DNA from: Anaerohalosphaera lusitana
Lineage (GTDB): Bacteria > Planctomycetota > Phycisphaerae > Sedimentisphaerales > Anaerohalosphaeraceae
Length of the DNA stretch: 64,000 bases
NCBI RefSeq assembly: GCF_002007645.1
Contig: NZ_CP019791.1
Location: 1,488,001 to 1,552,000 of the forward strand
Reading direction: 5' to 3'
Shown: positions 22,099 to 63,001 of the stretch, in pieces
How the letters are laid out: every line of letters starts with the position of its first letter
Position numbering within the stretch: the first letter of the stretch is position 1
Notes under the pieces: generated by a model
Database searches by the model: none
What the model was told of the DNA's origin: nothing
The model's input: the letters and a program-made list of their open reading frames with translations, nothing else
Position numbers and translations under genes: made by a program

Positions 22099-22953
22099 TT
22101 ATAGGAGGGCGGTCATGCCCATTTCTTTGAATTGTGAGGGGGTTACGTGGAGGAGGGACTTGAATGCTCTGGTGAAGTGGGTTGGGCGGTCGTAGCCGAG
22201 TCGGGCGGCGATCTGTTTGTTGGAGAGGGTGGTTTCGCGGAGGAGTTTGCAGGCGAGGATCATTTTCTGGCGGAGGATGTATTCCTGGAGCGTCATGCCG
22301 ATGTGTTCCTTGAAGACGCGGGAGAGGTGTTCGCGGGAGACGGTGAGCTGGTGTGCAATTTCGGAGATGCGGACGGGGCCGGTGATGTTGTCGGTGATCA
22401 TCTGCTGTGTTCTGCGGACGAGTATGCTTCGGGCGTCGTCGGGGTGCTGTGACCAGCAGCTTGCTGTGAGGGCGGAGATAACCTCGGTGACGAGTTTTAG
22501 GGCGTCGAAGGGGGTGAGGTCGCAGGTGAGGCCGTTGTAGTTTTTGTACTTGAGAAGTTTCCGGATTATTGTGGTGTCGGGGGGTAGGTTGTATATGTTG
22601 CCGTTGCGGGCGATGAGTTCGCGGACCATTTTTGTTGCGGTGTCGCCTATGAAGCCCATCCAGAAGAATTCCCAGGGTTCGGCTGCATTTTCGGGGTAGT
22701 AGTATTCGAATTCGGGTGCGCGGACGTCGCAGAGGAAGCAGGTGCCGGGTGTGAGGCTGTAGGTGCCTGAGCTGTCGCGGAGTTCGCCGCGTCCTGAGAG
22801 GGTGTATTTGATGAAGCAGTGTTTTTCGCCCTGTCTGAAGGGGCCCTCGTTGTAGTAGGATGGGGAGCTGTGTACCTCTCTTTCGATGCAGAGCGGGCGG
22901 GGGAAGGAGGCGAGGGGTTGTATGACCTGAAATTTTACGTTCCAGATATTCAT
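22099..22953 (-). CDS. AraC-family transcriptional regulator
   Basis: 284 residues, ATG 22953; no clear RBS. The N-terminal half (about 1-165) is a cupin-like sensing domain of the AraC_binding type (KYTLSGRGELRDSSGTYSLT, PGTCFLCDVRAPEFEYYYP, WEFFWMGFIG). The C-terminal half holds two helix-turn-helix units (RISEIAHQLTVSREHLSRVFK and LSNKQIAARLGYDRPTHFTRAF). It is transcribed divergently from the GH101 gene across a 320-bp gap, and is therefore the best candidate for a glycan-responsive activator of the locus to its right. The ligand is not inferable from sequence; a galacto-N-biose-like sugar would fit the context. Confidence 0.92.
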   Translation of the reverse strand: MNIWNVKFQVIQPLASFPRPLCIEREVHSSPSYYNEGPFRQGEKHCFIKYTLSGRGELRDSSGTYSLTPGTCFLCDVRAPEFEYYYPENAAEPWEFFWMGFIGDTATKMVRELIARNGNIYNLPPDTTIIRKLLKYKNYNGLTCDLTPFDALKLVTEVISALTASCWSQHPDDARSILVRRTQQMITDNITGPVRISEIAHQLTVSREHLSRVFKEHIGMTLQEYILRQKMILACKLLRETTLSNKQIAARLGYDRPTHFTRAFKSLLHVTPSQFKEMGMTALL

Positions 22954-23200: not shown

Positions 23201-23278
23201 ATGCACATCTTTGAGGTTGGCGACGGGCTGATCAGGGTTTTACTGTCATTAGATTTTTTATATGGAGATACGGTATGA
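23201..23278 (+). CDS. Possible 25-codon leader ORF coupled to the GH101 gene
   Basis: ATG 23201 follows GGGAGAG (23193-23199), a strong though close RBS. The frame reads MHIFEVGDGLIRVLLSLDFL plus five residues and stops with TGA at 23276-23278, overlapping the GH101 ATG as ATGA. The GH101 RBS (GGAG at 23264-23267) lies inside this frame. A leader peptide controlling translation of GH101 is possible. Chance is the alternative, given the short length. Confidence 0.35.
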   Translation: MHIFEVGDGLIRVLLSLDFLYGDTV

Positions 23279-26226
23279 GCAGGAAGTCACTCGCGTTTTT
23301 AAGTTTAGTGTTGATGATCTGTCTTGGTGCGGCAGGGGCTGCTGAGACGGCTACTATCGAGTCCGATGTTCTGGCGGTAGAGGTGGATACGGCTTTTCCG
23401 CGGGTGGTCAAGTATACGTGGAAGGAAAGCGGGGCCGTGATGTACGGTCAGGAGAACGAGCTGGAGCAGTTCAAGATCAACGGCGAGGCGATGAAGCCTG
23501 CGAAGATCGAATTTTCCAGGAGCGACGACAGCGCGAAGTACGCTGTGCGGGCGAGGAACACGCGGTTCAATGTCGTGATGAATGTGGCTGAGAATGTGCT
23601 GGAGTTTCGGATCACGGACATTCGTGACGGGGGGTGGCATTATGTGAAGACCATCGAGATACCGAATCACAGTCTGTTTTCGGTAAGGAGTGATCAGCCT
23701 GGTGCGCAGGTTACGGCGGCGAAGGTGTGGCCGAGCAATGGTTGTATGGAAGAATTCGTGCAGGTAGCGAGTGCGGCGACGGACGTTAATCCTGTGAGCA
23801 GGACCTATGTGCTTTTGAATACGGACGAGCTTGCGGCATCGATCGAGAATAATGTTCTGATGGACAGCAGCCGGGTGTACTATCAGACGGTGGATAACGG
23901 CGGGTACAAGTCGTGCGGGGTGAGTAATCCCGCGTGGACGTATCGCGAGATCGAATCGGAGATTTATGAAGAGCCTTACTGCAAGGTCGTGATAACGGAC
24001 GACGTGAACGGCGACGATGAGGTTAGCTGGCAGGACGCGGCGATAGAGCATCGCAAGATCATGTACAATCCGCAGGGAGCGGAAGAGATCAAGACGGACG
24101 TGGTTTCGCAGATCGCGATGAATTTTGCGAGCCTGGCCCAGCATCCGTTTTTGAAGGTGCTGGACGATATCAAGATGGTTTATCTGTACACGGATGGGCT
24201 GGGTCAGACGGTGCAGTTCAAGGGTTATCAGTCGGAGGGGCATGACAGTGCTCATCCGGATTACGGCAACAACTTCAATATGCGGGCAGGCGGGCTGGAC
24301 GATTTCAATTTCGTGACGAAGAAGCTGCACGACTGGAACTGCAAGCCTGGCGTTCATATAAACTGCACGGAGTATTATCCGGAGGCGAAGTATTACAGTG
24401 ACGATCTGCTGACGGGCAGAAGGGGCTGGGCGTGGCTGGATCAGTCGATCTATGCGGATAAGCGGTATGATATCGTGAGCGGCAAGCTGTATCACAGGCT
24501 GGATGAGCTGGCGGAGAACGCGCCTTACCTGGACTGGATCTATGTGGATGTTTATTTTGGTGTCGGCTGGGACAGTTGGAAGCTGACGAGCAGGCTGAAT
24601 GATAACGGCTGGGACGCATATACGGAATTTGAAGGTATGATGGAGCGGGACGCTGTCTGGATCCACAGGTCGCAGAAGCATGCGGGGCTGGGCGTGAGCA
24701 GCAAGGTCATTCGGTTCATCAAGAACCACCAGAAGGACGTTTGGACGCATGGGCCGTTGCTGAGGGGCAGCTACAACCTTGGGTTTATGGGTTGGCACGC
24801 TGAGAATAATATCAATCCGTTCATCTATAACGTGTTTACGAATAATCTGCCGAGCAAGTACATGCAGCATTTCGAGATCATGAAGTGGGAAGACGGCAGG
24901 GTCGATTTTACTGACGGCGTGCATGTTGCGAAAGAGGCGGACGGCAAGGTCAATCTTTATAAGGACGGCAAGCTGCTGGCGAGTGGTGTTTACGATGCGA
25001 AGAAACGCCGAATGGTCGAGAATCAGCTTTTCATTCCGTGGAGTCCGTATGATGAGACGAAGATATATCACTGGAACGATGCGGGCGGTGAGACTGAGTG
25101 GACGCTGCCTGCCAGTTGGAGCGGTGCCGGGTCGGTCAAGCTTTATCAGTTGAGTGATGCGGGCAGGACGTTTGTAGGTGATGTCGATGTTAGCGGCGGC
25201 AAGGTGACGCTGGATGTTGAAGCGGGTACGCCTTACGTTGTGTATAAGAGTGAACCGAAGCCTTATCCTGATATGAAGTGGGGTGAGGGGCAGTTGGTAA
25301 AGGATGCTCAGTTCAACAGTCATGGATTTGAGTACTGGAGCAAGAGCAGTTCGGCTGGCAGTACCGATCATATTACGATGGAGAATGATGAACGCGGGCA
25401 GACGCATTTGAATGTTGCCGGCAACGGCGGTGCGGATGCTATGGTTTCGCAGAAGATGACGGGGCTGGAAGGCGGCCAGAGGTATTCGGCGTCGGTATGG
25501 GCGCAGATCACTGGTGAGCGTAAGGCGACGTTCGGTGTGAAGGTCGGCGGTGAGGAGATCAGCAAGACGATCCGCAAGACGGATGTGCCGAACTATTCGT
25601 ACTGTTCGGACAAGGCGTGGACGCGTTATCAGCGGATCAGGGTGTTCTTTACTGTGCCTGAGGGTCAGAGTGAAGCGACGGTGTTTATGGCGGCCAGTGA
25701 AGGCGGTGAGGACGCAGTAGTTGAGTTTGATGATGTGCGTGTTATCGAAGCGCCGGCCAAGGATAATAACGGCCACTGGTACTACCAGGACTTTGAGTGG
25801 ACGGATGAGGGCTGGGGGCCGTTCGTGTTCGCGATCCGCAGTGATACGCATACGCATCTTTCGGAGACCCACGAGCCTTACACGGATGATACTATCAACG
25901 GGCAGTTCTCGCTGAAGACTCGCAATGAGCGGCAGGGGCTGGTTTACAGAACGACTGAAGGGCTGCTGCGGTTTGAGCCCAATACGACGTACACGGTGAG
26001 CTTTGAGTATCTGCAGGACAATGGCGGTCAGTACAGTGTAGTCGTGGGAAGCAATGACGGCGGTGAGGATGCGATGAAGGTTGACGAGAAGCTGCAGGGC
26101 AGTCGCGGCAGATATGTCGCTACGTTTACGACGGGTGACTATGACGATTGTTATATCGGTATCAGAAAGAACGATCGCAAGGGCGGCAGGATGGTTATGG
26201 ACGATCTTGCGATCGATGTGAAATAG
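23275..26226 (+). CDS. GH101-like endo-alpha-N-acetylgalactosaminidase
   Basis: 983 residues with a signal peptide (RKSLAFLSLVLMICLGAAGA). Family GH101 releases Gal-beta-1,3-GalNAc (core 1) from Ser/Thr of mucin-type glycoproteins. The catalytic core, about 60-660, contains GYQSEGHDSAHPDYG and the strand DWIYVDVYFG, whose Asp425 aligns with the GH101 nucleophile. The acid/base Glu451 is five residues after the GW of NGWDAYTEFEG, the same spacing as in the pneumococcal enzyme recalled from memory. Residues about 665-830 and 835-983 are two carbohydrate-binding-like beta-sandwich modules (GGQRYSASVWAQITG, NTTYTVSFEYLQDNGGQYSV). No anchor is seen, so it is periplasmic or secreted. It precedes the symporter and GH112 genes. 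Confidence 0.85.
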   Translation: MSRKSLAFLSLVLMICLGAAGAAETATIESDVLAVEVDTAFPRVVKYTWKESGAVMYGQENELEQFKINGEAMKPAKIEFSRSDDSAKYAVRARNTRFNVVMNVAENVLEFRITDIRDGGWHYVKTIEIPNHSLFSVRSDQPGAQVTAAKVWPSNGCMEEFVQVASAATDVNPVSRTYVLLNTDELAASIENNVLMDSSRVYYQTVDNGGYKSCGVSNPAWTYREIESEIYEEPYCKVVITDDVNGDDEVSWQDAAIEHRKIMYNPQGAEEIKTDVVSQIAMNFASLAQHPFLKVLDDIKMVYLYTDGLGQTVQFKGYQSEGHDSAHPDYGNNFNMRAGGLDDFNFVTKKLHDWNCKPGVHINCTEYYPEAKYYSDDLLTGRRGWAWLDQSIYADKRYDIVSGKLYHRLDELAENAPYLDWIYVDVYFGVGWDSWKLTSRLNDNGWDAYTEFEGMMERDAVWIHRSQKHAGLGVSSKVIRFIKNHQKDVWTHGPLLRGSYNLGFMGWHAENNINPFIYNVFTNNLPSKYMQHFEIMKWEDGRVDFTDGVHVAKEADGKVNLYKDGKLLASGVYDAKKRRMVENQLFIPWSPYDETKIYHWNDAGGETEWTLPASWSGAGSVKLYQLSDAGRTFVGDVDVSGGKVTLDVEAGTPYVVYKSEPKPYPDMKWGEGQLVKDAQFNSHGFEYWSKSSSAGSTDHITMENDERGQTHLNVAGNGGADAMVSQKMTGLEGGQRYSASVWAQITGERKATFGVKVGGEEISKTIRKTDVPNYSYCSDKAWTRYQRIRVFFTVPEGQSEATVFMAASEGGEDAVVEFDDVRVIEAPAKDNNGHWYYQDFEWTDEGWGPFVFAIRSDTHTHLSETHEPYTDDTINGQFSLKTRNERQGLVYRTTEGLLRFEPNTTYTVSFEYLQDNGGQYSVVVGSNDGGEDAMKVDEKLQGSRGRYVATFTTGDYDDCYIGIRKNDRKGGRMVMDDLAIDVK

Positions 26227-26392: not shown

Positions 26393-29095
26393 ATGACTTT
26401 TATTGACTGGGGAATTGTCGTTTTACTGATAGGTCTGATGACCTGGGCGGCGTGGCATACGACGAGATACAATCGTAGTGTTGCGGATTTTCTGGCTGCG
26501 AACAGATGTGCCGGCCGTTATATCATGGGTGTGTCGGACGGCATTGCGAATGTCGGTGCGATCAGCATTATCATGGTGTGGGAGATGTACTATCGGGCTG
26601 GCTTTTCGGTTGCCTGGTGGGCTCTGGTCATGCTTGTGGTGCAGGTTATCGTTGCGCTGACGGGGTGGATCGCGTACAGGTACAGGCAGTCTCGGGCGCT
26701 GACGCTGGCGCAGTTGCTGGAGATGCGGTACAATAAGAGCTTTCGTATATTCTGCGGGTTCGTGCTGTTTATCTCGGGTACGCTGAACTTTGGTATTTTC
26801 CCGGCAGTGGGAGCGAAATTCTTCCAGCATTTCTGCGGTCTTCCAAAAGACATTATATGGCAGGTCGGGCCGATGGAAGTAGATGCGGTCTATCTTTCGA
26901 TAATGCTGGCTCTGCTTGCGATCTCTCTTTACTTTACATTTGCCGGCGGACAGATCACGGTGATGATCACGGACTTTATTCAGGGGACGACGTTTAACAT
27001 CGCGCTGTGCCTTGTGATTGTGTTCGTTATGTGGAAGATGCCGTGGGCGGATATTATGGACTCGCTTTCGAACAAGGCGGCGGGTGAGTCGATGATCCAT
27101 CCGTTCAGATCGGCGAAGACGGAGGACTACAATTATTCGTTTTATCTGATCCAGGCGCTGATCATTTTCTGGACGTTCATGGCGTGGCAGGGGGCGCAGG
27201 GATATTTCGCGGCGGCCAAGAATGCTCACGAGGCGCGTATGGGCCGTGTGATGGGTAACTGGCGTATTCTGACGCAGCAGATGCTTGTGCTTATACTGCC
27301 TATCGCTGCGTATACGATGCTGCACAATCCGAACTGGGCCGATATGGCTGCGGGTGCACATCAGGAGCTGAACCAGATCGGTAACGAGACTATCCGGACG
27401 CAGGTGACGACTTCGGTGGGATTGCGGTATCTGCTTCCCGTGGGATTGACGGGTGCGTTGTCGGCTGTGCTGCTGGCGGCGTTTATCAGTACGCACGATA
27501 CTTATCTGCATTCGTGGGGAAGCATCTTCATTCAGGATGTCGTTCTTCCGCTGCGGGGCGGTAAGCCTTTGGATAAGAAGACGCATATGCGGTGGCTTCG
27601 TTATGCTATATTTGGTGTGGCGATATTTATTTTCCTGTTCAGTCTGTTCTTTTCGCAGAATGATACGATCGCGATGTATTTCGCGCTGACCGGTACGATC
27701 TGGCTTGGCGGTGCTGGTGCTGTTATCGTGGGCGGACTCTATACGCGATGGGGCACTACGGCAGGTGCTTATGCCGCAGTGTTCGGTGCGATCATTATCG
27801 CGGTTACGATCTTTACGTGTCAGAGGATCTGGCCTGACCTTTACCATACGGTTGAAAAGGGCAGGGTCAGTTATCTGCAGCTTGACGGTGCGAACGAAAG
27901 CGAGCTTAACAGCAAGTATAACCTTGAGGGCAGTGCGGAGTTTGTGCAGGGCGGCAGGTTTGACGGCGCCCTGGAGCTTGACGGCAAGGGATATTTGACA
28001 GTTGACGATTTTGAAGGTATCGGCGGGACAGATGCGCGGACCGTGAGCTACTGGATAAACGTTGAAAAGCCCGGGACGGTTCTGAGCTGGGGGAGAGAAG
28101 GTGACGGCAAGCAGTGGACGATGAGTGTCGTTCGGCGAGTCGCTACCGAAGCCGGCAAGGAGATAGAGACTGGCGTTGTTCGGCTGGATGTCGGCGGTGC
28201 GACGGTTACGGGTAATCTCAACGTGATGGACGGTGCGTGGCACCATGTGGCGGCGGTTGTAGATGAGAATCGCGGCACTACTGTGGATGATCTGGAGCTG
28301 TGGATCGACGGCAAGTTCCAGGAACGCAGTAAGATTGAGAATGCTGAGCTGGCGATAGATACGGCAGGCGATACGCCGGTAAGACTCGGTACGGGTATTG
28401 ACGGTCAGGCGGCGTTTGAGGGCATGATCGACGAGGTCAGTGTCTATAACCGACCCGTGACTAGGAAGCTGCCGGACAGTGATAAGGCAGAGCCCGAAGA
28501 GTCGCTGCACTTTGAGATGGATATTCTCAAGGGGCTGGAATTCCAGAAGGTCAGTTTTGCGGGCATGAAGCTGACTGTTAATTCGCAGTGGGGAATGCTG
28601 TATGCGATGGTGAGTACGGCGATCCTTTATACGGTTGTTTCGCTGCTGACGATGAAGAAGAAGTTCAACCTGGACAAGCTGCTGCACAGGGGCAAGTATG
28701 CTCTTGCGGAAGATGAGACGCAGGTTACTGATGAGCCGGTCAAGGGGCTCGGGACGCTGATCGGTATGGGCAAGGATTTCGATCTGAAGGATAAGATCGT
28801 TTACTCTTCGATCACCGGCTGGTCGGTCGTATGGGGTATCGTGTTTATCGCGGGCTGGATCCATAACGCCAATACTGAGGGCTTTTCCGAGTCGACATGG
28901 GGCAAGTTCTGGCAGTTCTATGTATGGCTGTCGGTTGTGCTCGGCGTGATAACTACGGTATGGTTCACGATCGGCGGTATCAAGGATGCGAAGGATCTGT
29001 TCCGTACGCTCGAGACGAAGGTTCGTAACGATGCAGATGACGGTTCGGTTTCGCATGCTGATGAAGATGACGAAGATGAGGGCGAAGCCGCGTAG
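26393..29095 (+). CDS. Sodium:solute symporter with an inserted LamG-like domain
   Basis: 900 residues, ATG 26393 with GAAAGG upstream. Residues 1-480 are an SSF/SLC5-type transporter: WGIVVLLIGLMTWAAWHTTR as the first helix, GVSDGIANVGAIS, then about 12 membrane segments ending VTIFTCQRIWPDLYHTVEK. Residues about 490-690 are not membrane but a concanavalin A-like LamG/LamG-like jelly-roll fold (GGRFDGALELDGKGYLTVDD, RTVSYWIN, DGAWHHVAAVVDENRG, GMIDEVSVYNRPV). Three further helices follow (WGMLYAMVSTAILYTVVSLL, SITGWSVVWGIVFIAGWIH, FYVWLSVVLGVITTVWFTI), then an acidic tail. The LamG part is probably periplasmic and may capture glycan at the transporter mouth. Context suggests galacto-N-biose import. 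The fold call for 490-690 is by motif only. Confidence 0.88.
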   Translation: MTFIDWGIVVLLIGLMTWAAWHTTRYNRSVADFLAANRCAGRYIMGVSDGIANVGAISIIMVWEMYYRAGFSVAWWALVMLVVQVIVALTGWIAYRYRQSRALTLAQLLEMRYNKSFRIFCGFVLFISGTLNFGIFPAVGAKFFQHFCGLPKDIIWQVGPMEVDAVYLSIMLALLAISLYFTFAGGQITVMITDFIQGTTFNIALCLVIVFVMWKMPWADIMDSLSNKAAGESMIHPFRSAKTEDYNYSFYLIQALIIFWTFMAWQGAQGYFAAAKNAHEARMGRVMGNWRILTQQMLVLILPIAAYTMLHNPNWADMAAGAHQELNQIGNETIRTQVTTSVGLRYLLPVGLTGALSAVLLAAFISTHDTYLHSWGSIFIQDVVLPLRGGKPLDKKTHMRWLRYAIFGVAIFIFLFSLFFSQNDTIAMYFALTGTIWLGGAGAVIVGGLYTRWGTTAGAYAAVFGAIIIAVTIFTCQRIWPDLYHTVEKGRVSYLQLDGANESELNSKYNLEGSAEFVQGGRFDGALELDGKGYLTVDDFEGIGGTDARTVSYWINVEKPGTVLSWGREGDGKQWTMSVVRRVATEAGKEIETGVVRLDVGGATVTGNLNVMDGAWHHVAAVVDENRGTTVDDLELWIDGKFQERSKIENAELAIDTAGDTPVRLGTGIDGQAAFEGMIDEVSVYNRPVTRKLPDSDKAEPEESLHFEMDILKGLEFQKVSFAGMKLTVNSQWGMLYAMVSTAILYTVVSLLTMKKKFNLDKLLHRGKYALAEDETQVTDEPVKGLGTLIGMGKDFDLKDKIVYSSITGWSVVWGIVFIAGWIHNANTEGFSESTWGKFWQFYVWLSVVLGVITTVWFTIGGIKDAKDLFRTLETKVRNDADDGSVSHADEDDEDEGEAA

Positions 29096-29142: not shown

Positions 29143-29190
29143 AGGGGCCTGGAGATGTGAAAATGTTTCCGGGCTCCCTTTTTTGTTTTT
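29143..29190 (+). terminator. Rho-independent terminator between symporter and GH112 genes
   Basis: AGGGGCCTGGA (29143-29153) pairs with TCCGGGCTCCCT (29168-29179, one bulge), followed by TTTTTTGTTTTT. An alternative small hairpin CCAGG-GG-CCTGG overlaps its 5' arm, which would allow conditional read-through into the next gene. Confidence 0.7.
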
Positions 29191-29221
29191 GATTTTGCGT
29201 GATGTTTGAGAGGTGATATTC

Positions 29222-31426
29222 GTGAGTAAGTATAAGGAACTCGAGAAGAAGGGTACCGATGGTTTCGTGACGCTGCCTGCGGAGAGCGGGCAGGAAGAGA
29301 AGGTCGTGGAGCTGATCAACAAGTGGGGTTCGGATGCGATACGTGACAGTGACGGTACTGAGCTGAGCCCGGAGCTGGTGGAGCTCGGCAAGCAGGTTTA
29401 TTCGACTATCTGCCTGGTAAGGGCGGATCAGGAATGGCCGAGGAAGAACTGGGATAAGCTGCCGCAGAAATTCTTGATGAGTGAGCATGTGACGGCGACT
29501 TCGGACAAGGTCGAGATCGACCCGATGGAGAACTATTTTCGGGAGAAGTACGAGATCGACCGCAATCATGATGAGAAGGAATGGTGGCAGGTGTTCGATC
29601 GGACGACTGGCGAGGAGGTTAGTACGGATGACTGGGAGTTTGACGGTGACCGCGGGCTGGTGGTTATCAAAAATGCGAAGAAGTTCCATGTCTATACGGT
29701 GAATTTTCTCGTTTACCAGATATGGGATTCGACGTCGATGTACAACCATATCTCGAACGGGTGGACGTGTCCGCATGTGGTCAGTACCGAGCCTTATCAC
29801 GCGGATGCTCGCAAGCATTTGATGGATTATTTCGATAACTGGCTTGAGACGCATCCGAATACTGATGTCGTGCGGCTTACGACGCTGGCGTATCATTTTG
29901 TGCTGGACAGCGATAAGCATGGCGTGGACAAGTACCGTGACTGGGTCGGTTATATGGACACGGTGACGGTCGAAGCGCTGCAGGATTTTGAGAAGGAGTA
30001 CGGCTATCGGCTAACTTCGGAAGACTTTGTCGATGAGGGTTATTACAACGCTACGTATCGTGTGCCGAAGAAGCGGTATCTGGATTGGATGCAGTTCATT
30101 CACAAGTTCGTGATCGAGTTCGGCAAGGAGCTGGTGGACAAGGTTCATGCGGCAGGCAAGAAGGCTGCGATTTTTCAGGGTGACCACTGGGTGGGTGTTG
30201 AGCCTTACAGTGACGATTATCCGAAGATGGGCATCGATATCAATGTCGGTGCGTGTGAGGATGGTGTTGCGTTGAGGCGGCTGGCGGATTCACCGTGGGA
30301 TGAGGTTAAGGAAATTCGGCTGTATCCTTATTTCTTCCCGGATGTGTTCTGCGAGGGCGGCAAGCCTACGGAAGAGTCCGTGAGCAACTGGGTGAAGATC
30401 AGGCGGGCGATGCTTCGCAAGCCAATCGACAGGATCGGTTACGGGGGGTATTTGAGCCTGGCGAAGAAGTTCCCGGAATTTGTCGAGCAGGTGAGCGGTC
30501 TTTGTGACGAGTTCAGGCAGATCAAGGAGAACAGCGGCAAGACTGAGCCTTACAGTGCGCCGGTGAAGGTTGCAATACTTAATGCGTGGGGCAAGTGGCG
30601 AAGTTGGCTGAATAATTTCGGGCGTGATCAGAAGTTCTTTATAAAGCGGCCCGACGTGATCGCTGTTGCCGGATCTAATCTGCTGGAGTGCATCAGCGGA
30701 TTGCCGGTCGAGATACAGTTTATGAGCTTCGATGATATTCTCACAGGCGGTGTGCCGGACGATGTCGATGTAATCATTAATGACGGCGAGGACGGAACTG
30801 CTTGGAGCGGCGGTGAGTGGTGGGTCAATGAGCAGATCGTATCGACGATCCGCGAGTGGATCTACAACGGCGGGGGCTTCGTGGGCAATCTCGGGCCGAG
30901 TGCGTACCAGCATCAGGGCAGGTATTTCCAGTTGAGCGATGTTATGGGCGTCGAGCGTGAGATCGGCAACCAGGTTATGGCGGCTGGTCGCAAGTTTGAG
31001 GAAAGCGGTGAGCACTTTATTACGGCTGATGCCGGCGGCAAACTGGACTTCGGCACGGACAAGAGCTATGTCTTTGCGAGTAGTGAGGATGTGCGTGTGC
31101 TGGAGGCGAACGGTTTGCATATTCGGCTGGCGGCGAAAGATTTCGGCAAGGGCAGGGCGGTGTATATGGCTGGTCTGCCTTACAGTATCGACAACAGCAG
31201 GATGCTGCACAGGGCGCTGCTTTGGTCGGCTGGTCAGGAGAGCGAGCTGAAGAAGTGGTTCAGCTCGAATGTCAATACCGAATGTGCGGCGTATCCTGAG
31301 AAGAAATGCTTTGTGGTTGTGAACAACGCGAGCAGCGAGCAGACGACGACGGTTTATGACGGTGATGGCGAGTCGTTCGAGTTGACGCTGGATGCTTACG
31401 GCAGTAAGTGGTTCAGTATGGAGTAG
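29222..31426 (+). CDS. GH112 1,3-beta-galactosyl-N-acetylhexosamine phosphorylase
   Basis: 734 residues from GTG 29222, with GAGAGG at 29208-29213; a GTG at 29213 is less likely. The reaction splits Gal-beta-1,3-GalNAc or -GlcNAc with phosphate to Gal-1-phosphate and the free hexosamine; cytoplasmic, no signal. It matches the family over its length: SMYNHISNGW, LTTLAYHFVLD, QGDHWVGVEPY with Asp321 in the place of the family's catalytic Asp (recalled, not aligned), INVGACEDGV, and the Rossmann-like middle (VKVAILNAWGKWRSW). A C-terminal beta domain follows (AYPEKKCFVVVNNASSEQ). Preceding genes fit galacto-N-biose rather than lacto-N-biose as substrate. The Leloir-type enzymes needed next (kinase, Gal-1-P uridylyltransferase) are not in the window. 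Confidence 0.92.
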   Translation: MSKYKELEKKGTDGFVTLPAESGQEEKVVELINKWGSDAIRDSDGTELSPELVELGKQVYSTICLVRADQEWPRKNWDKLPQKFLMSEHVTATSDKVEIDPMENYFREKYEIDRNHDEKEWWQVFDRTTGEEVSTDDWEFDGDRGLVVIKNAKKFHVYTVNFLVYQIWDSTSMYNHISNGWTCPHVVSTEPYHADARKHLMDYFDNWLETHPNTDVVRLTTLAYHFVLDSDKHGVDKYRDWVGYMDTVTVEALQDFEKEYGYRLTSEDFVDEGYYNATYRVPKKRYLDWMQFIHKFVIEFGKELVDKVHAAGKKAAIFQGDHWVGVEPYSDDYPKMGIDINVGACEDGVALRRLADSPWDEVKEIRLYPYFFPDVFCEGGKPTEESVSNWVKIRRAMLRKPIDRIGYGGYLSLAKKFPEFVEQVSGLCDEFRQIKENSGKTEPYSAPVKVAILNAWGKWRSWLNNFGRDQKFFIKRPDVIAVAGSNLLECISGLPVEIQFMSFDDILTGGVPDDVDVIINDGEDGTAWSGGEWWVNEQIVSTIREWIYNGGGFVGNLGPSAYQHQGRYFQLSDVMGVEREIGNQVMAAGRKFEESGEHFITADAGGKLDFGTDKSYVFASSEDVRVLEANGLHIRLAAKDFGKGRAVYMAGLPYSIDNSRMLHRALLWSAGQESELKKWFSSNVNTECAAYPEKKCFVVVNNASSEQTTTVYDGDGESFELTLDAYGSKWFSME

Positions 31427-37357: not shown

Positions 37358-40300
37358 ATGTCCTCTGAAGAGCAAAAACTGGGAAGATCTTTTGTATGGC
37401 ACAATGTGACGCAGTTTCTCGGTGCCATGAATGATAATATTTATAAGTTTCTGATCATTCCGTTTCTGGTTCCTGAAAGTCAGGCTGATCATGCGACGCG
37501 AATAGGGGCGATCGCAGGTGCTGTGTTTGTTGTGCCGTTTTTGCTGTTCACGGCTTTTGCGGGCAGGCTGGCGGATCGTCTGAGCAAGACAAGCATTATT
37601 CGGTGCGTGAAGGTGGCGGAGCTTGTGATCATGTGTGCCGCAATGGCTGCGTTCTGGTTCGGCAGTGTGTGGGGTTTGTACCTGCTTTTGTTTGCGATGT
37701 CGACGCAGAGTGCGTTTTTCGGTCCGGCCAAGTACGGCATCATCCCTGAGCTGGTGGGCAGGGAGAAGCTTTCGCGTGCTAACAGCTTTATCGAGGCAAT
37801 GACGTATCTTGCGATAATTGCGGGGGCGTTTATGGCGCCGACGGTTCTGCGGCTGACGGGTCGCAACTATGTTTTGGCAGCGGCAGCGTGCGTGATGGTA
37901 GCTGCGGTTGGGATAGGGACGAGCTTGGGGATCAAACGTATGCCGTCTGCCGGCGGGGGAAGCAAGGCTTCGGTTTTCTTTTGGAACGATATAATAAAAA
38001 CTCTCAAAAGCATCAAGGGCGATACCTCGCTTCTGTTTGCGGTTTTCGGGGCGGCATATTTTCTTTTTTTCGGCGCTTACATATATGTGAATCTGATCCC
38101 TTATGGTATGGAAGTTCTTGGGCTGGATAAGATCGCAAGCGGGTATTTGTTCTTCATTGCGGCATTGGGTATCGGTGTGGGGTCCCTGCTTTCTTCGAAG
38201 CTTAGCGGCAGGCACGTGGAGTTGGGTGTTGTGCCGATAGGAGCTTTGGGGCTGGGTGTTTCAGCGATAGTTCTGGGTCTGATCACCGACAGCAGGATTG
38301 CGGCATATGTCTGGATATTCGTCATGGGTGCGAGCGGCGGGCTGTTCATTATACCGCTGCACGCTTTCATACAGCTCAGGAGTCCCGAGAAGAACAGGGG
38401 CGAGGTGCTGGCGGCTTCAGGGTTCATCGGCTGGCTGGGTGTGCTGCTCGCATCGGGAGCCATCGGGCTTGTGCAGTTGGTAAATTTTGGTCCGGCAGGA
38501 TCGTTCGTTGTGCTGGCTGTGATGACGCTGCTGCTGACGGGATTGTTTATTTACAAGATGCCTGATCTGCTGGTGCGGTTTGTTGCAGTTATGCTGACGA
38601 AATGCTGTTACCGGGTGAACACGCCGGGGATCGAAAAGGTTCCGTTTGACGGCGGGGCGTTGCTGGTGTGCAATCACGTTTCTTATGTGGATGCGTTGCT
38701 GATCGGCGTTACACAGCAGCGGCGAATTCGTTTTGTGATGGATCGTGATATCTATAACTTGTGGTGGGTCAACTGGTTTTTCCGGCTGATGAAGGTGATA
38801 CCTATCTCGCCTAAGGATTCGCCTAAGAGGATCGTGAGGTCGTTGCATGAGGCTCGTGCGGCGATGGATCAGGGGGATCTGGTCTGCATATTTGCCGAGG
38901 GAGCCATCACGCGTAACGGTTTTGTGCAGAAGTTCAGGCCGGGTATCGAGAAGATCGTCAAGGGGACGGACTGTCCGATCATTCCGATGTATATCGGCGG
39001 TGCTTGGGGAAGCATATTCAGTTACTATCACGGGAGGGTGATGTCGACGCTGCCGAGGAAGTTCCCGTATACGGTTACTATTGTGTTCGGCGACCCGATG
39101 CCTTCGGATTCGAAAGCGTTTGATGTGCGTCAGCGTGTGGTCGATCTTTCATGCGAGTATTTTGCGGATGTCAAGAGAAAACGTCAGTCGATGGGATATA
39201 AGTTCGTGCAGACAGCGAGGCGCAAGTGGTTCAGGCATTGCATGACGGATACGACGACGGGTCAGAGGCTGACGTTTGGTAAGGCTCTAGTGTCGGCTGT
39301 TGTGCTGGGTCGGAAGATCGAGAAGGTGACGCAGGGGCAGAAGCATGTCGGAATAATGCTGCCTCCTTCGGCGGGCGGTGCGCTTGCGAATATAGCCTGT
39401 ACGATGCGGGGTAAGATACCGGTCAATCTGAATTATGTGACTTCCGGCAAGAATCGAGATCACTGTGTCGAAGTTTGTGATGTCAAAAAAATTATCACGT
39501 CGCACAAATTCATTCGCAAGCTCGATACAGTCGAAGAGTCGGACAATATGGTTTTCATCGAGGATATGGTCAAAGATGTCGGGTGGTTCGATAAGTTTGC
39601 GGGATTTGTCAAAGCGGTGCTGATGCCGAAAAAGGTTCTGGGCTGTTCGGAGGGGTTTGATCCGGACAGCACGGCCACGGTGATATTTTCTTCGGGCAGT
39701 TCTGGTATGCCCAAGGGTGTGCTGTTAAGTCATCATAATATTCTTTCCAATATCGAACAGACCAAGATGCTGGTCAAGGTTCGGCCGGGTGATAACGCCT
39801 GCTGTGTTCTGCCGATTTTCCATGCATTCGGTTACACTTGCGGGCTGTGGCTGCCGTTGATCAGCGGTGTGCCGGTGGTGTTCATTGCGAATCCACTGGA
39901 TGCTTCGACGGTCGGTAAGGCTGTAGAGGAAGATAAGAGCACGCTGCTGTTCGCGCCGCCGACGTTCCTGATGCGTTATATGCGTCGGGTGGAGCCTGAG
40001 CAGTTCGCTACTTTGCGTTTTGTTGCTCCTGGTGCTGAGAAGCTGAAGATGAAGATGGCGAGGTCATTCGAGAAGAAGTTCGGAATCAAGCTGCATGAGG
40101 GGTATGGTGCGACTGAGGCCTCGCCGGTGATATCGCTGAACGTCGATGATGTTGATCGGGGCGGCGTTGAGCAGGTTGGACATAAGGATGGCACGGTCGG
40201 TCAGCCTCTGCCTGGGGTGTCGGTGAGGATAAAGCATATCGAGACAGGTGAGCAGTTGAGTGCGGGTGAGCAGGGCCTTATAACGGTCAAGGGGCCGAAT

Positions 40301-40768
40301 GTGATGCAGGGCTATAAGGATGAGCCGGAGAAAACGCGGGATGTTCTGCAGGACGGCTGGTATAATACGGGTGATATTGGTGTGCTGGACGAAGACGGAT
40401 TCTTGACGATAAAGGATAGGCTGGCGAGGTTCAGCAAGATAGGCGGCGAGATGGTTCCGCATATGGGTGTCGAGGAAGTGCTGATGCATGGGCTGGACGC
40501 TCATGAGCAGGTAGTTGCAGTGACAGGGATACCGAATGAGAAGAAGGGCGAGGAACTGGTCGTTCTTTACCTGTCGGACAAGACGGATGCAGATCAGCTT
40601 AACGAGATTATATCGAAGAGTGATGTGCCGAATATGTGGAAACCACGGGCGGACAATTATGTGCCGATCGACGAGATGCCGATACTTGGTTCGGGCAAGC
40701 TGGATATCGTGAGGGTGAAGGAGCTTGCCAGGGAAGCCAAGAAGGATTCGTCATCAGTGGGTGTTTGA
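37358..40768 (+). CDS. aas: Aas-type fusion: MFS lysophospholipid transporter, acyltransferase and acyl-ACP synthetase
   Basis: 1,136 residues, start ATG 37358 (GAGAGGTGAGGG upstream). Three parts in one chain. About 1-420: a major-facilitator transporter of the LplT type (TQFLGAMNDNIYKFLIIPFL, FGPAKYGIIPEL). About 425-620: a PlsC acyltransferase with NHVSYVDALL (H-x4-D) and IFAEGAITRNG. About 650-1130: an AMP-forming acyl synthetase with SSGSSGMPKGVLLSH, GYGATEASPVIS and GWYNTGDIGVLDEDGF. In E. coli, LplT and Aas are two proteins that re-import and re-acylate lysophospholipids; the full fusion is known from many bacteria. With a lipase on each side, the operon suggests membrane lipid turnover or scavenging. 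Confidence 0.93.
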   Translation: MSSEEQKLGRSFVWHNVTQFLGAMNDNIYKFLIIPFLVPESQADHATRIGAIAGAVFVVPFLLFTAFAGRLADRLSKTSIIRCVKVAELVIMCAAMAAFWFGSVWGLYLLLFAMSTQSAFFGPAKYGIIPELVGREKLSRANSFIEAMTYLAIIAGAFMAPTVLRLTGRNYVLAAAACVMVAAVGIGTSLGIKRMPSAGGGSKASVFFWNDIIKTLKSIKGDTSLLFAVFGAAYFLFFGAYIYVNLIPYGMEVLGLDKIASGYLFFIAALGIGVGSLLSSKLSGRHVELGVVPIGALGLGVSAIVLGLITDSRIAAYVWIFVMGASGGLFIIPLHAFIQLRSPEKNRGEVLAASGFIGWLGVLLASGAIGLVQLVNFGPAGSFVVLAVMTLLLTGLFIYKMPDLLVRFVAVMLTKCCYRVNTPGIEKVPFDGGALLVCNHVSYVDALLIGVTQQRRIRFVMDRDIYNLWWVNWFFRLMKVIPISPKDSPKRIVRSLHEARAAMDQGDLVCIFAEGAITRNGFVQKFRPGIEKIVKGTDCPIIPMYIGGAWGSIFSYYHGRVMSTLPRKFPYTVTIVFGDPMPSDSKAFDVRQRVVDLSCEYFADVKRKRQSMGYKFVQTARRKWFRHCMTDTTTGQRLTFGKALVSAVVLGRKIEKVTQGQKHVGIMLPPSAGGALANIACTMRGKIPVNLNYVTSGKNRDHCVEVCDVKKIITSHKFIRKLDTVEESDNMVFIEDMVKDVGWFDKFAGFVKAVLMPKKVLGCSEGFDPDSTATVIFSSGSSGMPKGVLLSHHNILSNIEQTKMLVKVRPGDNACCVLPIFHAFGYTCGLWLPLISGVPVVFIANPLDASTVGKAVEEDKSTLLFAPPTFLMRYMRRVEPEQFATLRFVAPGAEKLKMKMARSFEKKFGIKLHEGYGATEASPVISLNVDDVDRGGVEQVGHKDGTVGQPLPGVSVRIKHIETGEQLSAGEQGLITVKGPNVMQGYKDEPEKTRDVLQDGWYNTGDIGVLDEDGFLTIKDRLARFSKIGGEMVPHMGVEEVLMHGLDAHEQVVAVTGIPNEKKGEELVVLYLSDKTDADQLNEIISKSDVPNMWKPRADNYVPIDEMPILGSGKLDIVRVKELAREAKKDSSSVGV

Positions 40769-61024: not shown

Positions 61025-63001
61025 ATGATGAAGCTTAAGATTTTATGGGGAATTGCCCTGATAGCGATCGCCTTTGCTGCTGTCCCGCTGCAGGCAGAGG
61101 TGGTTTTTCAGGACGATTTTGAAACTTATCCGGTTTCCAACCCGGCGGATTTTTCTGCGACGGGTAACTGGACGGCAGATCCTGATGCGTCAAATGCAAG
61201 CCGGATTTTTGACACCGGCAATTTTGGCGGTTCAAGGCTGTGGATCAGTAATACAGATGGTTCGACGATTACGACTACAGGCACAGAGGCAGCATCTGAG
61301 ACAAGGTACGAGATGACTTTCATGACCGCTTGTGAGACAAATGTCGGTACCAGAATGATTGACATGGAATATGATATTCTTATCGGTCAGGATGCTGCTA
61401 CCGCCACGAGTGTTATAGGCGGACCTGTAACAGTGATTGCCAGGGGTGATGAATACCAGGTAGACGACTCCAAGGAAGATCACATTTTTACAGAAGTGTT
61501 TACAACCAGTATGGTAAACGCCGGCGATAAGATATTCTTTACGATCACTCGCGTGGGGGTTAATCCCGACTCAACCAGCAGTGCCTGGATATGTGTTGAT
61601 GATGTTTTGCTCGAGTCTCTCGGCTCGACTCGTGCACCCACGCTTGTTCAGCCTGAAGACGGAGCGGATCTTGTCTCGCCTGACGTAACCCTTGAATGGA
61701 ACGCACCGGACCTGGGCACGGCCGACAGTTATAATCTGATCTATAACACCGACCCTAATTTTGACAGTAATCCTACAGTTGTTTCCGGACTGACAACTAC
61801 CAGTCACTCGCCCGGTCTCGATTATGACAGTACTTATTATTGGGCGGTTGAGGCTGTACAGAGCGGTACTCCTTACAGGAGCGCGATCCAGTCATTTACG
61901 ACTACGCCTGCATCGCCTGTTATCGTTGCCGATCCGCAGAATGTGACTGTTGCAGCGGGTGAACCTGCAGAACTCACAGTAGAACATCTTAATGGGACCG
62001 AATTCAAATGGTTCCGCAACGGAACGGAAGTTCCTAGTGCTACATCTGCAACGCTGCAGATCCCGGCTGCTGGTGAGAGTGATGAAGGTGTTTACTATTG
62101 TGAAGTTTCAAATGCGGTAGGTTCCGTGCAGTCAGGCAATGCGGTTGTTATGACCCAACGTCTTGTCGCGCACTGGGACTTTGAAAATGACTTGATCGAC
62201 GAAGTTGGCGGTCGAGAGGGCGTATTTACCGACCCCAATGCTCCAACTGCAAGATATGTTGCTGGTTTCGACGGTACGAGCACCGGTTTCGAATTTATTG
62301 GTGACAACAAGTTCATCGAGGTTCCAGGAACCGAAGAGCTGTTCAATTTCTACACCAACGGATTCAGTGTCGGGTACTGGGTCAAGACGACAGGCGGCAC
62401 TCATCTGTTCTCTGCGATGGTTGCCAAGCACACCTATTCAGATCCTAGAGCCGGCTTTATATGCACACAGTATAACGGTAATGGTCAGACACGCATTCAG
62501 GTTGACGGTTTCGGCGGTCTCTATGGCCCATCGGCTGATATAGCGGGTCTGCAGGACGGTGGATGGCATTATGTGATCATGACTTATGAGCCTGACGCTG
62601 ACCCTGAGAACCCTGGTCAGGTACGTGCACGCGTATATGTTGACGGCGGCGGGGTAACGATCGACCCGGACGGCAACGCTATCTGGATGCGTACTGCAGA
62701 TACCAGAGAACCTGAAGCTGCAACTCTGCCGGTTCGCTGGGACACACCTCTGCGTATCGGTGCTGATGACGAAGCTGGTGCCGGCAGTCTTGTCGGTACG
62801 CTGGACGAAGTGAAGGTCTGGAGTTATGCACTTGATCCTACCGAGGCGGCACAGCAGTATACAGGCTACGTCACAGGTACTGAGATATGCACGGACATAC
62901 TTGCCAATGACATCAACGGAGACTGTAAGGTTAATATTGCCGACCTTGCTGATCTGGCGGGCAACTGGCTGAGCTGCAACAGGGTACCTGACTGTAAATA
63001 A
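61025..63001 (+). CDS. Secreted multidomain protein: FN3-like, Ig-like, LamG, dockerin-like
   Basis: 658 residues, ATG 61025 with AGGAG seven bases upstream. Signal LKILWGIALIAIAFAAVPLQ. About 25-200: an unassigned beta-sandwich (FQDDFETYPVSNPADFSATG). About 205-295: an FN3-like module (PTLVQPEDGADLVSPDVTLE, YDSTYYWAVEAVQSG). About 298-375: Ig-like (PQNVTVAAGEPAELTVEHLN, DEGVYYCEVSNAVGSVQSGN). About 378-620: LamG (LVAHWDFENDLIDEVGGREG, DGGWHYVIMTYEPDADPENP, GTLDEVKVWSYAL). About 628-658: a single dockerin-like EF-hand repeat (NDINGDCKVNIADLADLAGN). The end serves cell-surface attachment in this bacterial group by an unknown cohesin-like partner. No catalytic domain, so probably glycan binding or adhesion. 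Confidence 0.88.
   Translation: MMKLKILWGIALIAIAFAAVPLQAEVVFQDDFETYPVSNPADFSATGNWTADPDASNASRIFDTGNFGGSRLWISNTDGSTITTTGTEAASETRYEMTFMTACETNVGTRMIDMEYDILIGQDAATATSVIGGPVTVIARGDEYQVDDSKEDHIFTEVFTTSMVNAGDKIFFTITRVGVNPDSTSSAWICVDDVLLESLGSTRAPTLVQPEDGADLVSPDVTLEWNAPDLGTADSYNLIYNTDPNFDSNPTVVSGLTTTSHSPGLDYDSTYYWAVEAVQSGTPYRSAIQSFTTTPASPVIVADPQNVTVAAGEPAELTVEHLNGTEFKWFRNGTEVPSATSATLQIPAAGESDEGVYYCEVSNAVGSVQSGNAVVMTQRLVAHWDFENDLIDEVGGREGVFTDPNAPTARYVAGFDGTSTGFEFIGDNKFIEVPGTEELFNFYTNGFSVGYWVKTTGGTHLFSAMVAKHTYSDPRAGFICTQYNGNGQTRIQVDGFGGLYGPSADIAGLQDGGWHYVIMTYEPDADPENPGQVRARVYVDGGGVTIDPDGNAIWMRTADTREPEAATLPVRWDTPLRIGADDEAGAGSLVGTLDEVKVWSYALDPTEAAQQYTGYVTGTEICTDILANDINGDCKVNIADLADLAGNWLSCNRVPDCK

Follow-up and report, generated by a model that had tools for sequence, protein, structure and literature searches.

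The window, a 64,000-nucleotide stretch of the Anaerohalosphaera lusitana genome, encodes a 900-residue sodium:solute symporter (SSF) that carries a LamG domain in the loop joining membrane segments 12 and 13, which is predicted to be periplasmic, and its gene lies between genes for a GH101 endo-alpha-N-acetylgalactosaminidase and a GH112 galacto-N-biose phosphorylase. The architecture and its predicted topology are solid. Our main reading, to which we give a probability of about one half, is that the protein is a Na+-coupled importer of galacto-N-biose with a tethered periplasmic module for capture or docking.

The transporter and its inserted domain

The transporter gene is divided as follows (positions in the window):

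26393-29095, plus strand: whole SSF transporter of 900 aa, LamG insert included, one open frame
26393-27820, plus strand: first SSF part, membrane segments 1-12, residues 1-476 (hydropathy; Pfam SSF at residues 33-463; family-profile match to SGLT1/vSGLT)
27860-28468, plus strand: LamG domain (Laminin_G_3, ConA-like jelly roll), residues ~490-692, within the TM12-13 loop, predicted to be periplasmic (Pfam, profile, VIA)
28469-28591, plus strand: linker returning to the membrane, residues 693-733 (alignment, hydropathy)
28592-28972, plus strand: second SSF part, membrane segments 13-15, residues 734-860 (hydropathy; residues 726-890 align with relatives)

The Pfam SSF family (PF00474) matches residues 33-463 (E 1.3e-17; 64.2 bits against a cut-off of 22.8) over profile positions 1-403 of 406, and the NCBIfam model TIGR00813 scores 96.3 bits (E 2e-27) against a model cut-off of 184. 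By these profile scores the protein is a divergent SSF member. A single-sequence search of the PDB returned no match; structural matches came with family profiles, the SSF family profile matching human SGLT1 (E 2.5e-15) and also vSGLT and SiaT. In the profile alignment, S366 and T367 of the window transporter align with the MSS of SGLT1, that is, with the serine pair of the Na2 site. We take the residues so aligned to be the Ser/Thr pair of the Na2 site, which lies on TM8 in SSF numbering, and the match points to Na+ coupling.

Laminin_G_3 (PF13385) matches residues 530-691 (E 4e-17; 63.2 bits against a cut-off of 27.6) and is covered nearly in full (profile positions 2-147 of 151). With the first strand (VSYLQLDG...) included, the unit spans residues ~490-692, or 27860-28468, in good agreement with an earlier note on this DNA, which had placed a LamG-like domain at about residues 490-690 of a 900-residue symporter; the three LamG-like motifs that it quoted, DEVSVYNR among them, are all present, and the conserved WHHV and IDEV/YNR motifs are retained. 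A profile of LamG domains, taken from the window transporter, from paralogues elsewhere in its genome and from one relative, matches the solved LamG-fold chains 4qvs and 5hon. The full-length AF2 model had a mean pLDDT of 54 with a 22-sequence alignment, and AF2 with a 6-sequence alignment gave 55; at this confidence the models were read for fold only, not for domain orientation or residue contacts. A beta-sandwich is seen at residues 548-648, with most strands at pLDDT 63-80. When residues 547-694 were compared with known structures by VIA-align, the matches included agrin G2 (Z 11.1; 91 residues, 2.1 A), a laminin LG domain (Z 10.5), the pentraxin serum amyloid P (Z 9.5) and the carbohydrate-binding domain of NanA sialidase (Z 8.6). 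Foldseek with the whole window model ranked SGLT2 first, as a weak match (E 6e-3). As modelled, the domain is a complete jelly-roll LamG fold, as the earlier note had supposed.

Hydropathy places 12 membrane segments ahead of the LamG domain and 3 behind it, so that membrane helices do flank the domain on both sides as had been claimed. The predicted inner loops are the richer in Lys and Arg (hydropathy/topology count), and the N-terminus is predicted to lie outside. With 12 membrane segments preceding it, the LamG domain would then be on the outer side of the inner membrane, in the TM12-13 loop, and is predicted to face the periplasm rather than the cell surface. In the profile alignment the insertion point falls at SGLT1 residues ~505-520, a stretch which we take to be an extracellular loop. 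Loop lengths in 67 homologues lend independent support to this side of the membrane: the predicted outer loops vary widely (TM6-7, 22-188 residues; TM8-9, 19-319; TM12-13, 12-257), the predicted inner loops are nearly constant (TM7-8, 18-23; TM9-10, 35-41), and every large loop insert seen is on the predicted periplasmic face. The periplasmic placement expected by the earlier note is thus also the predicted one.

The TM12-13 loop has 257 residues in the window transporter and 17 in its closest insert-free homologues, L011 and L012, which are 57% identical to it over the shared part; together with a paralogue from the same genome (L002, 46% identical) these have 14-17 residues at the insert site. 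No second SSF-LamG protein of the subfamily was found in 161 genomes of the order, and none beyond the window in 198 relatives or 392 genomes of the phylum. The literature searched on SSF proteins with LamG, or on carbohydrate-binding modules in symporter loops, held nothing relevant, and no earlier report of an SSF protein with LamG in one of its loops was found there; InterPro architectures lay outside the scope of these searches, and SSF-LamG proteins may exist elsewhere. Such singularity, one genome among the 161 of the order surveyed, is what a misassembled or misread fusion of two separate genes would produce, and the earlier note had named such a fusion as one of the outcomes that would overturn its proposal. 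The genome, however, is a single contig of 4.25 Mb, the frame is open throughout, and GC3 is level over both LamG junctions (0.65, 0.64 and 0.68); moreover, the last three membrane segments resume in frame after LamG, with ~36-46% identity to relatives. Given the single-contig genome and the level GC3 over the gene, we regard an artefactual fusion as extremely improbable.

The GH101-GH112 cluster and the likely cargo

The genes surrounding the transporter are these:

22099-22953, minus strand: AraC-family regulator, divergent from the cluster (Pfam HTH_18, E 2.3e-23; synteny)
23275-26226, plus strand: GH101 endo-alpha-N-acetylgalactosaminidase (Pfam Glyco_hydro_101, E 5.6e-95; GH101 accessory domains)
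29144-29177, plus strand: terminator-like stem and T run in the gap between transporter and GH112 (consensus scan)
29213-31426, plus strand: GH112 galacto-N-biose phosphorylase (976 bits with TIGR02336, whose cut-off is 560)

The GH101 protein matches 2zxq/EngBF (E 1.5e-122), has an N-terminus that by eye resembles a signal peptide, and by homology would free Gal-beta-1,3-GalNAc from O-glycoproteins. The GH112 protein matches the B. longum enzyme (3wfz/2zus, E 1e-190). In the bifidobacterial pathway galacto-N-biose is released outside the cell by GH101 and cleaved inside by GH112 (PMC8106489). The presence of both enzymes as neighbours makes galacto-N-biose the likely cargo of the transporter, an assignment drawn from gene order. 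GH112 is found in 17 of 397 genomes of the class, and all four GH112-bearing genomes of the family to which the window belongs (the window, L108, L109 and L121) keep the order GH101-SSF-GH112. The AraC regulator adjoins these genes in at least three of the four, its orthologues holding the same position in L109/L136 and L121/L199. A Verrucomicrobiales contig (L140) also has an SSF gene followed by GH112. The stem between transporter and GH112 means that the three cluster genes may be unequally transcribed; such sites are overall no more numerous than in shuffled sequence, and the stem may just lower read-through.

The cargo could instead be another solute (GalNAc, lacto-N-biose or a larger glycopeptide), with the placement between GH101 and GH112 incidental. 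The substrate specificity of an SSF protein is not readable from sequence here, and lacto-N-biose, too, can be a substrate of GH112 enzymes (PMC8106489). Against this stands the conservation of the gene order in four genomes with two SSF lineages, and we consider a different cargo unlikely.

Several further loci were noted in passing. On a Holophagales contig (L197:1440-7591) GH101 is followed by a 667-residue MFS sugar transporter and then GH112, a different transporter type in the same slot; this MFS protein has an extra segment of ~150 residues late in its sequence. A genome's second GH112 gene (L117:6570-8567, minus strand; G035:C154) is a family match with one in-frame TGA. Within the window, 37358-40768 (plus strand) encodes a 1136-residue protein uniting MFS, acyltransferase and AMP-binding domains.

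Inserts in related transporters

The search of other genomes for the same architecture, which the earlier note had suggested, yielded unrelated inserts in orthologous transporters in place of a second SSF-LamG. The two closest GH112-linked transporters, from Planctomycetota (L041:1928-4378, the same as L199:6477-8927; 52% identical to the window transporter) and Verrucomicrobiales (L140:3-1775, a partial gene; 51% identical), lack LamG and share a homologous insert in the TM6-7 loop, ~150 residues long in L199. L199 was modelled with an SGLT fold (Foldseek E 7.6e-10; VIA Z 18.8 for SGLT1 and 18.6 for SiaT), and Foldseek matches its insert to the EclA sugar-binding domain (6yf6), EngBF (2zxq) and CBM4-2 (1k42) with probability 1.00 and E-values of 9e-3 to 3e-2. 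In sequence, the L041/L199 insert weakly resembles the GalBD-like C-terminal region of the GH101 proteins of these clusters (15.0 bits, the best of 300 shuffles reaching 6.2); hhalign gives this match a probability of 68% over 37 columns, and other parts of GH101 less than 1%. No Pfam family matches the L041 insert at E 0.1. From the Foldseek matches and the weak sequence match, the insert is read as a beta-sandwich of a CBM-like or galactose-binding-like type. A third kind of insert is found in the GH101-SSF-GH112 transporter at L109:6741-9320 (minus strand; the same as L136:6370-8949), where the TM6-7 loop contains ~150 residues of pentapeptide repeats (Pfam E 3.1e-15).

In the tree, the window transporter, L041 and L140 form one group (support 0.86), and the SSFs of L108 and L109 are on a separate branch. 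Two SSF branches bearing unrelated inserts suggest that SSF proteins were recruited twice to the GH101-GH112 cluster and that unrelated modules were gained in periplasmic loops at least three times; this is how the cluster seems to have evolved. The SSF of L108 has no large TM6-7 insert, and a sixth GH112-linked SSF, from Spartobacteria (L191), has no such insert either. Relatives at L040:436-3321, L042, L043 and L044 have coiled-coil-like or charged TM8-9 inserts (loops of 142-319 residues) without GH112 linkage. Since L191 has no insert and these non-linked relatives have theirs in TM8-9, inserts and GH112 linkage are associated and not equivalent. Two other SSF relatives have N-terminal extensions with no Pfam match, one of ~1,050 residues (L078:5340-10475, minus strand) and one of at least 530 residues (L077:3611-7402, minus strand).

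Two further readings of the LamG domain have to be weighed here. It may be a docking or scaffold module that binds GH101 or another periplasmic protein, not sugar, and channels product to the transporter. Laminin-G domains of animals bind proteins, and the top structural matches of the window domain, in agrin, laminin and neurexin, are LamG/LNS domains that bind proteins. The unrelated folds of the inserts in the syntenic transporters (LamG, CBM-like, pentapeptide repeats) also fit species-specific partners better than a single common sugar ligand. The abundance of LamG_3 in this genome, where it occurs in surface, peptidase and CotH-type proteins, likewise makes a protein or glycoprotein an alternative ligand. 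However, the ConA-like fold includes sugar binders, as the NanA match illustrates, and the insert of the orthologues resembles carbohydrate-binding modules; docking without sugar binding is, on balance, somewhat unlikely. Alternatively, the insertion may be nearly neutral, a common LamG module of the genome having landed in one of the long periplasmic loops that tolerate inserts. The TM8-9 inserts without GH112 linkage and the abundance of LamG would allow this, but the window domain is complete, its conserved motifs are kept and its frame is unbroken, and loop inserts recognised by Pfam or by fold were seen only in GH112-linked transporters (other long relatives being scanned in part). A neutral insertion is, in our view, improbable. 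As a further illustration of LamG abundance, 61025-63001 in the window (plus strand) encodes a 658-residue protein with immunoglobulin-like and Laminin_G_3 domains.

Proposed function and known systems

A galacto-N-biose importer with a tethered module would work as follows. Planctomycetes bring polymers into the periplasm, as shown with dextran in other planctomycetes (PMC5394234), and a polymer or glycoprotein would likewise enter the large periplasm here. On the outer side of the inner membrane, secreted GH101 would act on O-glycoproteins and liberate galacto-N-biose, which the symporter would import together with Na+ and cytoplasmic GH112 would cleave with phosphate. Most likely the LamG domain would act as a module tethered at the transporter's outer opening, keeping glycan, glycopeptide or GH101 close, such that product may be caught before it diffuses off. 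Several observations weigh against this reading. Many LamG_3 proteins of this genome have no obvious sugar role, and SSF relatives that lack LamG are presumably competent transporters. The search turned up a single SSF-LamG protein, the terminator-like stem splits the transporter from GH112, and L108 and L109, half of the four cluster genomes, use a distantly related SSF. The earlier note, which saw in the domain a glycan-binding device for sugar capture, was right about a jelly-roll LamG in a predicted periplasmic loop but overlooked the GH101 and GH112 neighbours and the inserts of the orthologues.

More broadly, and only tentatively, we suggest that galacto-N-biose symporters of planctomycetes and verrucomicrobia may have repeatedly and independently gained binding modules (LamG, CBM-like sandwich, pentapeptide helix) tethered in one or another of their periplasmic loops, becoming secondary transporters with built-in receptors that serve substrate concentration or enzyme docking. 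If the module captures substrate, it would illustrate, in a phylum whose members bring polymers into a large periplasm, how a secondary transporter can acquire the affinity and selectivity for which ABC and TRAP importers rely on separate binding proteins. The mucin core-1 disaccharide is also suggested as cargo for an SSF group without a prior assignment here, and the recurrence of unrelated inserts in syntenic transporters makes the role of the module accessible to loop deletion and swapping.

The membrane part of the window transporter shares family and fold with the SGLT/SSF proteins (human SGLT1 and SGLT2, vSGLT, SiaT), from which it differs in its 257-residue TM12-13 segment with the LamG domain; in the profile alignment, the sugar-site residues of SGLT1 are not all conserved together. 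The enzyme pair is that of the bifidobacterial galacto-N-biose pathway, GH101 outside and GH112 inside (PMC8106489), but clusters of that type have an ABC importer with a galacto-N-biose binding protein. No such ABC importer lies between the enzymes of the window cluster, where the gap between GH101 and GH112 is filled by an SSF symporter that carries a module of its own. Fusion of an SSF transporter to a soluble module has a precedent in the Kelch/NanM-like sialate mutarotase fusions, of which one of 895 residues is encoded in the genome of the window (L280:856-3540). These likewise join a sugar-type SSF to a soluble beta-rich module, but their module is N-terminal and enzyme-like, whereas that of the window transporter is within a loop and lectin-like. 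In ABC importers of the GlnPQ kind, substrate-binding domains are fused to the permease, a comparable idea of a receptor domain tethered to its transporter; the window protein differs in being a secondary active transporter whose domain, with putative ligand binding, is held in an internal loop.
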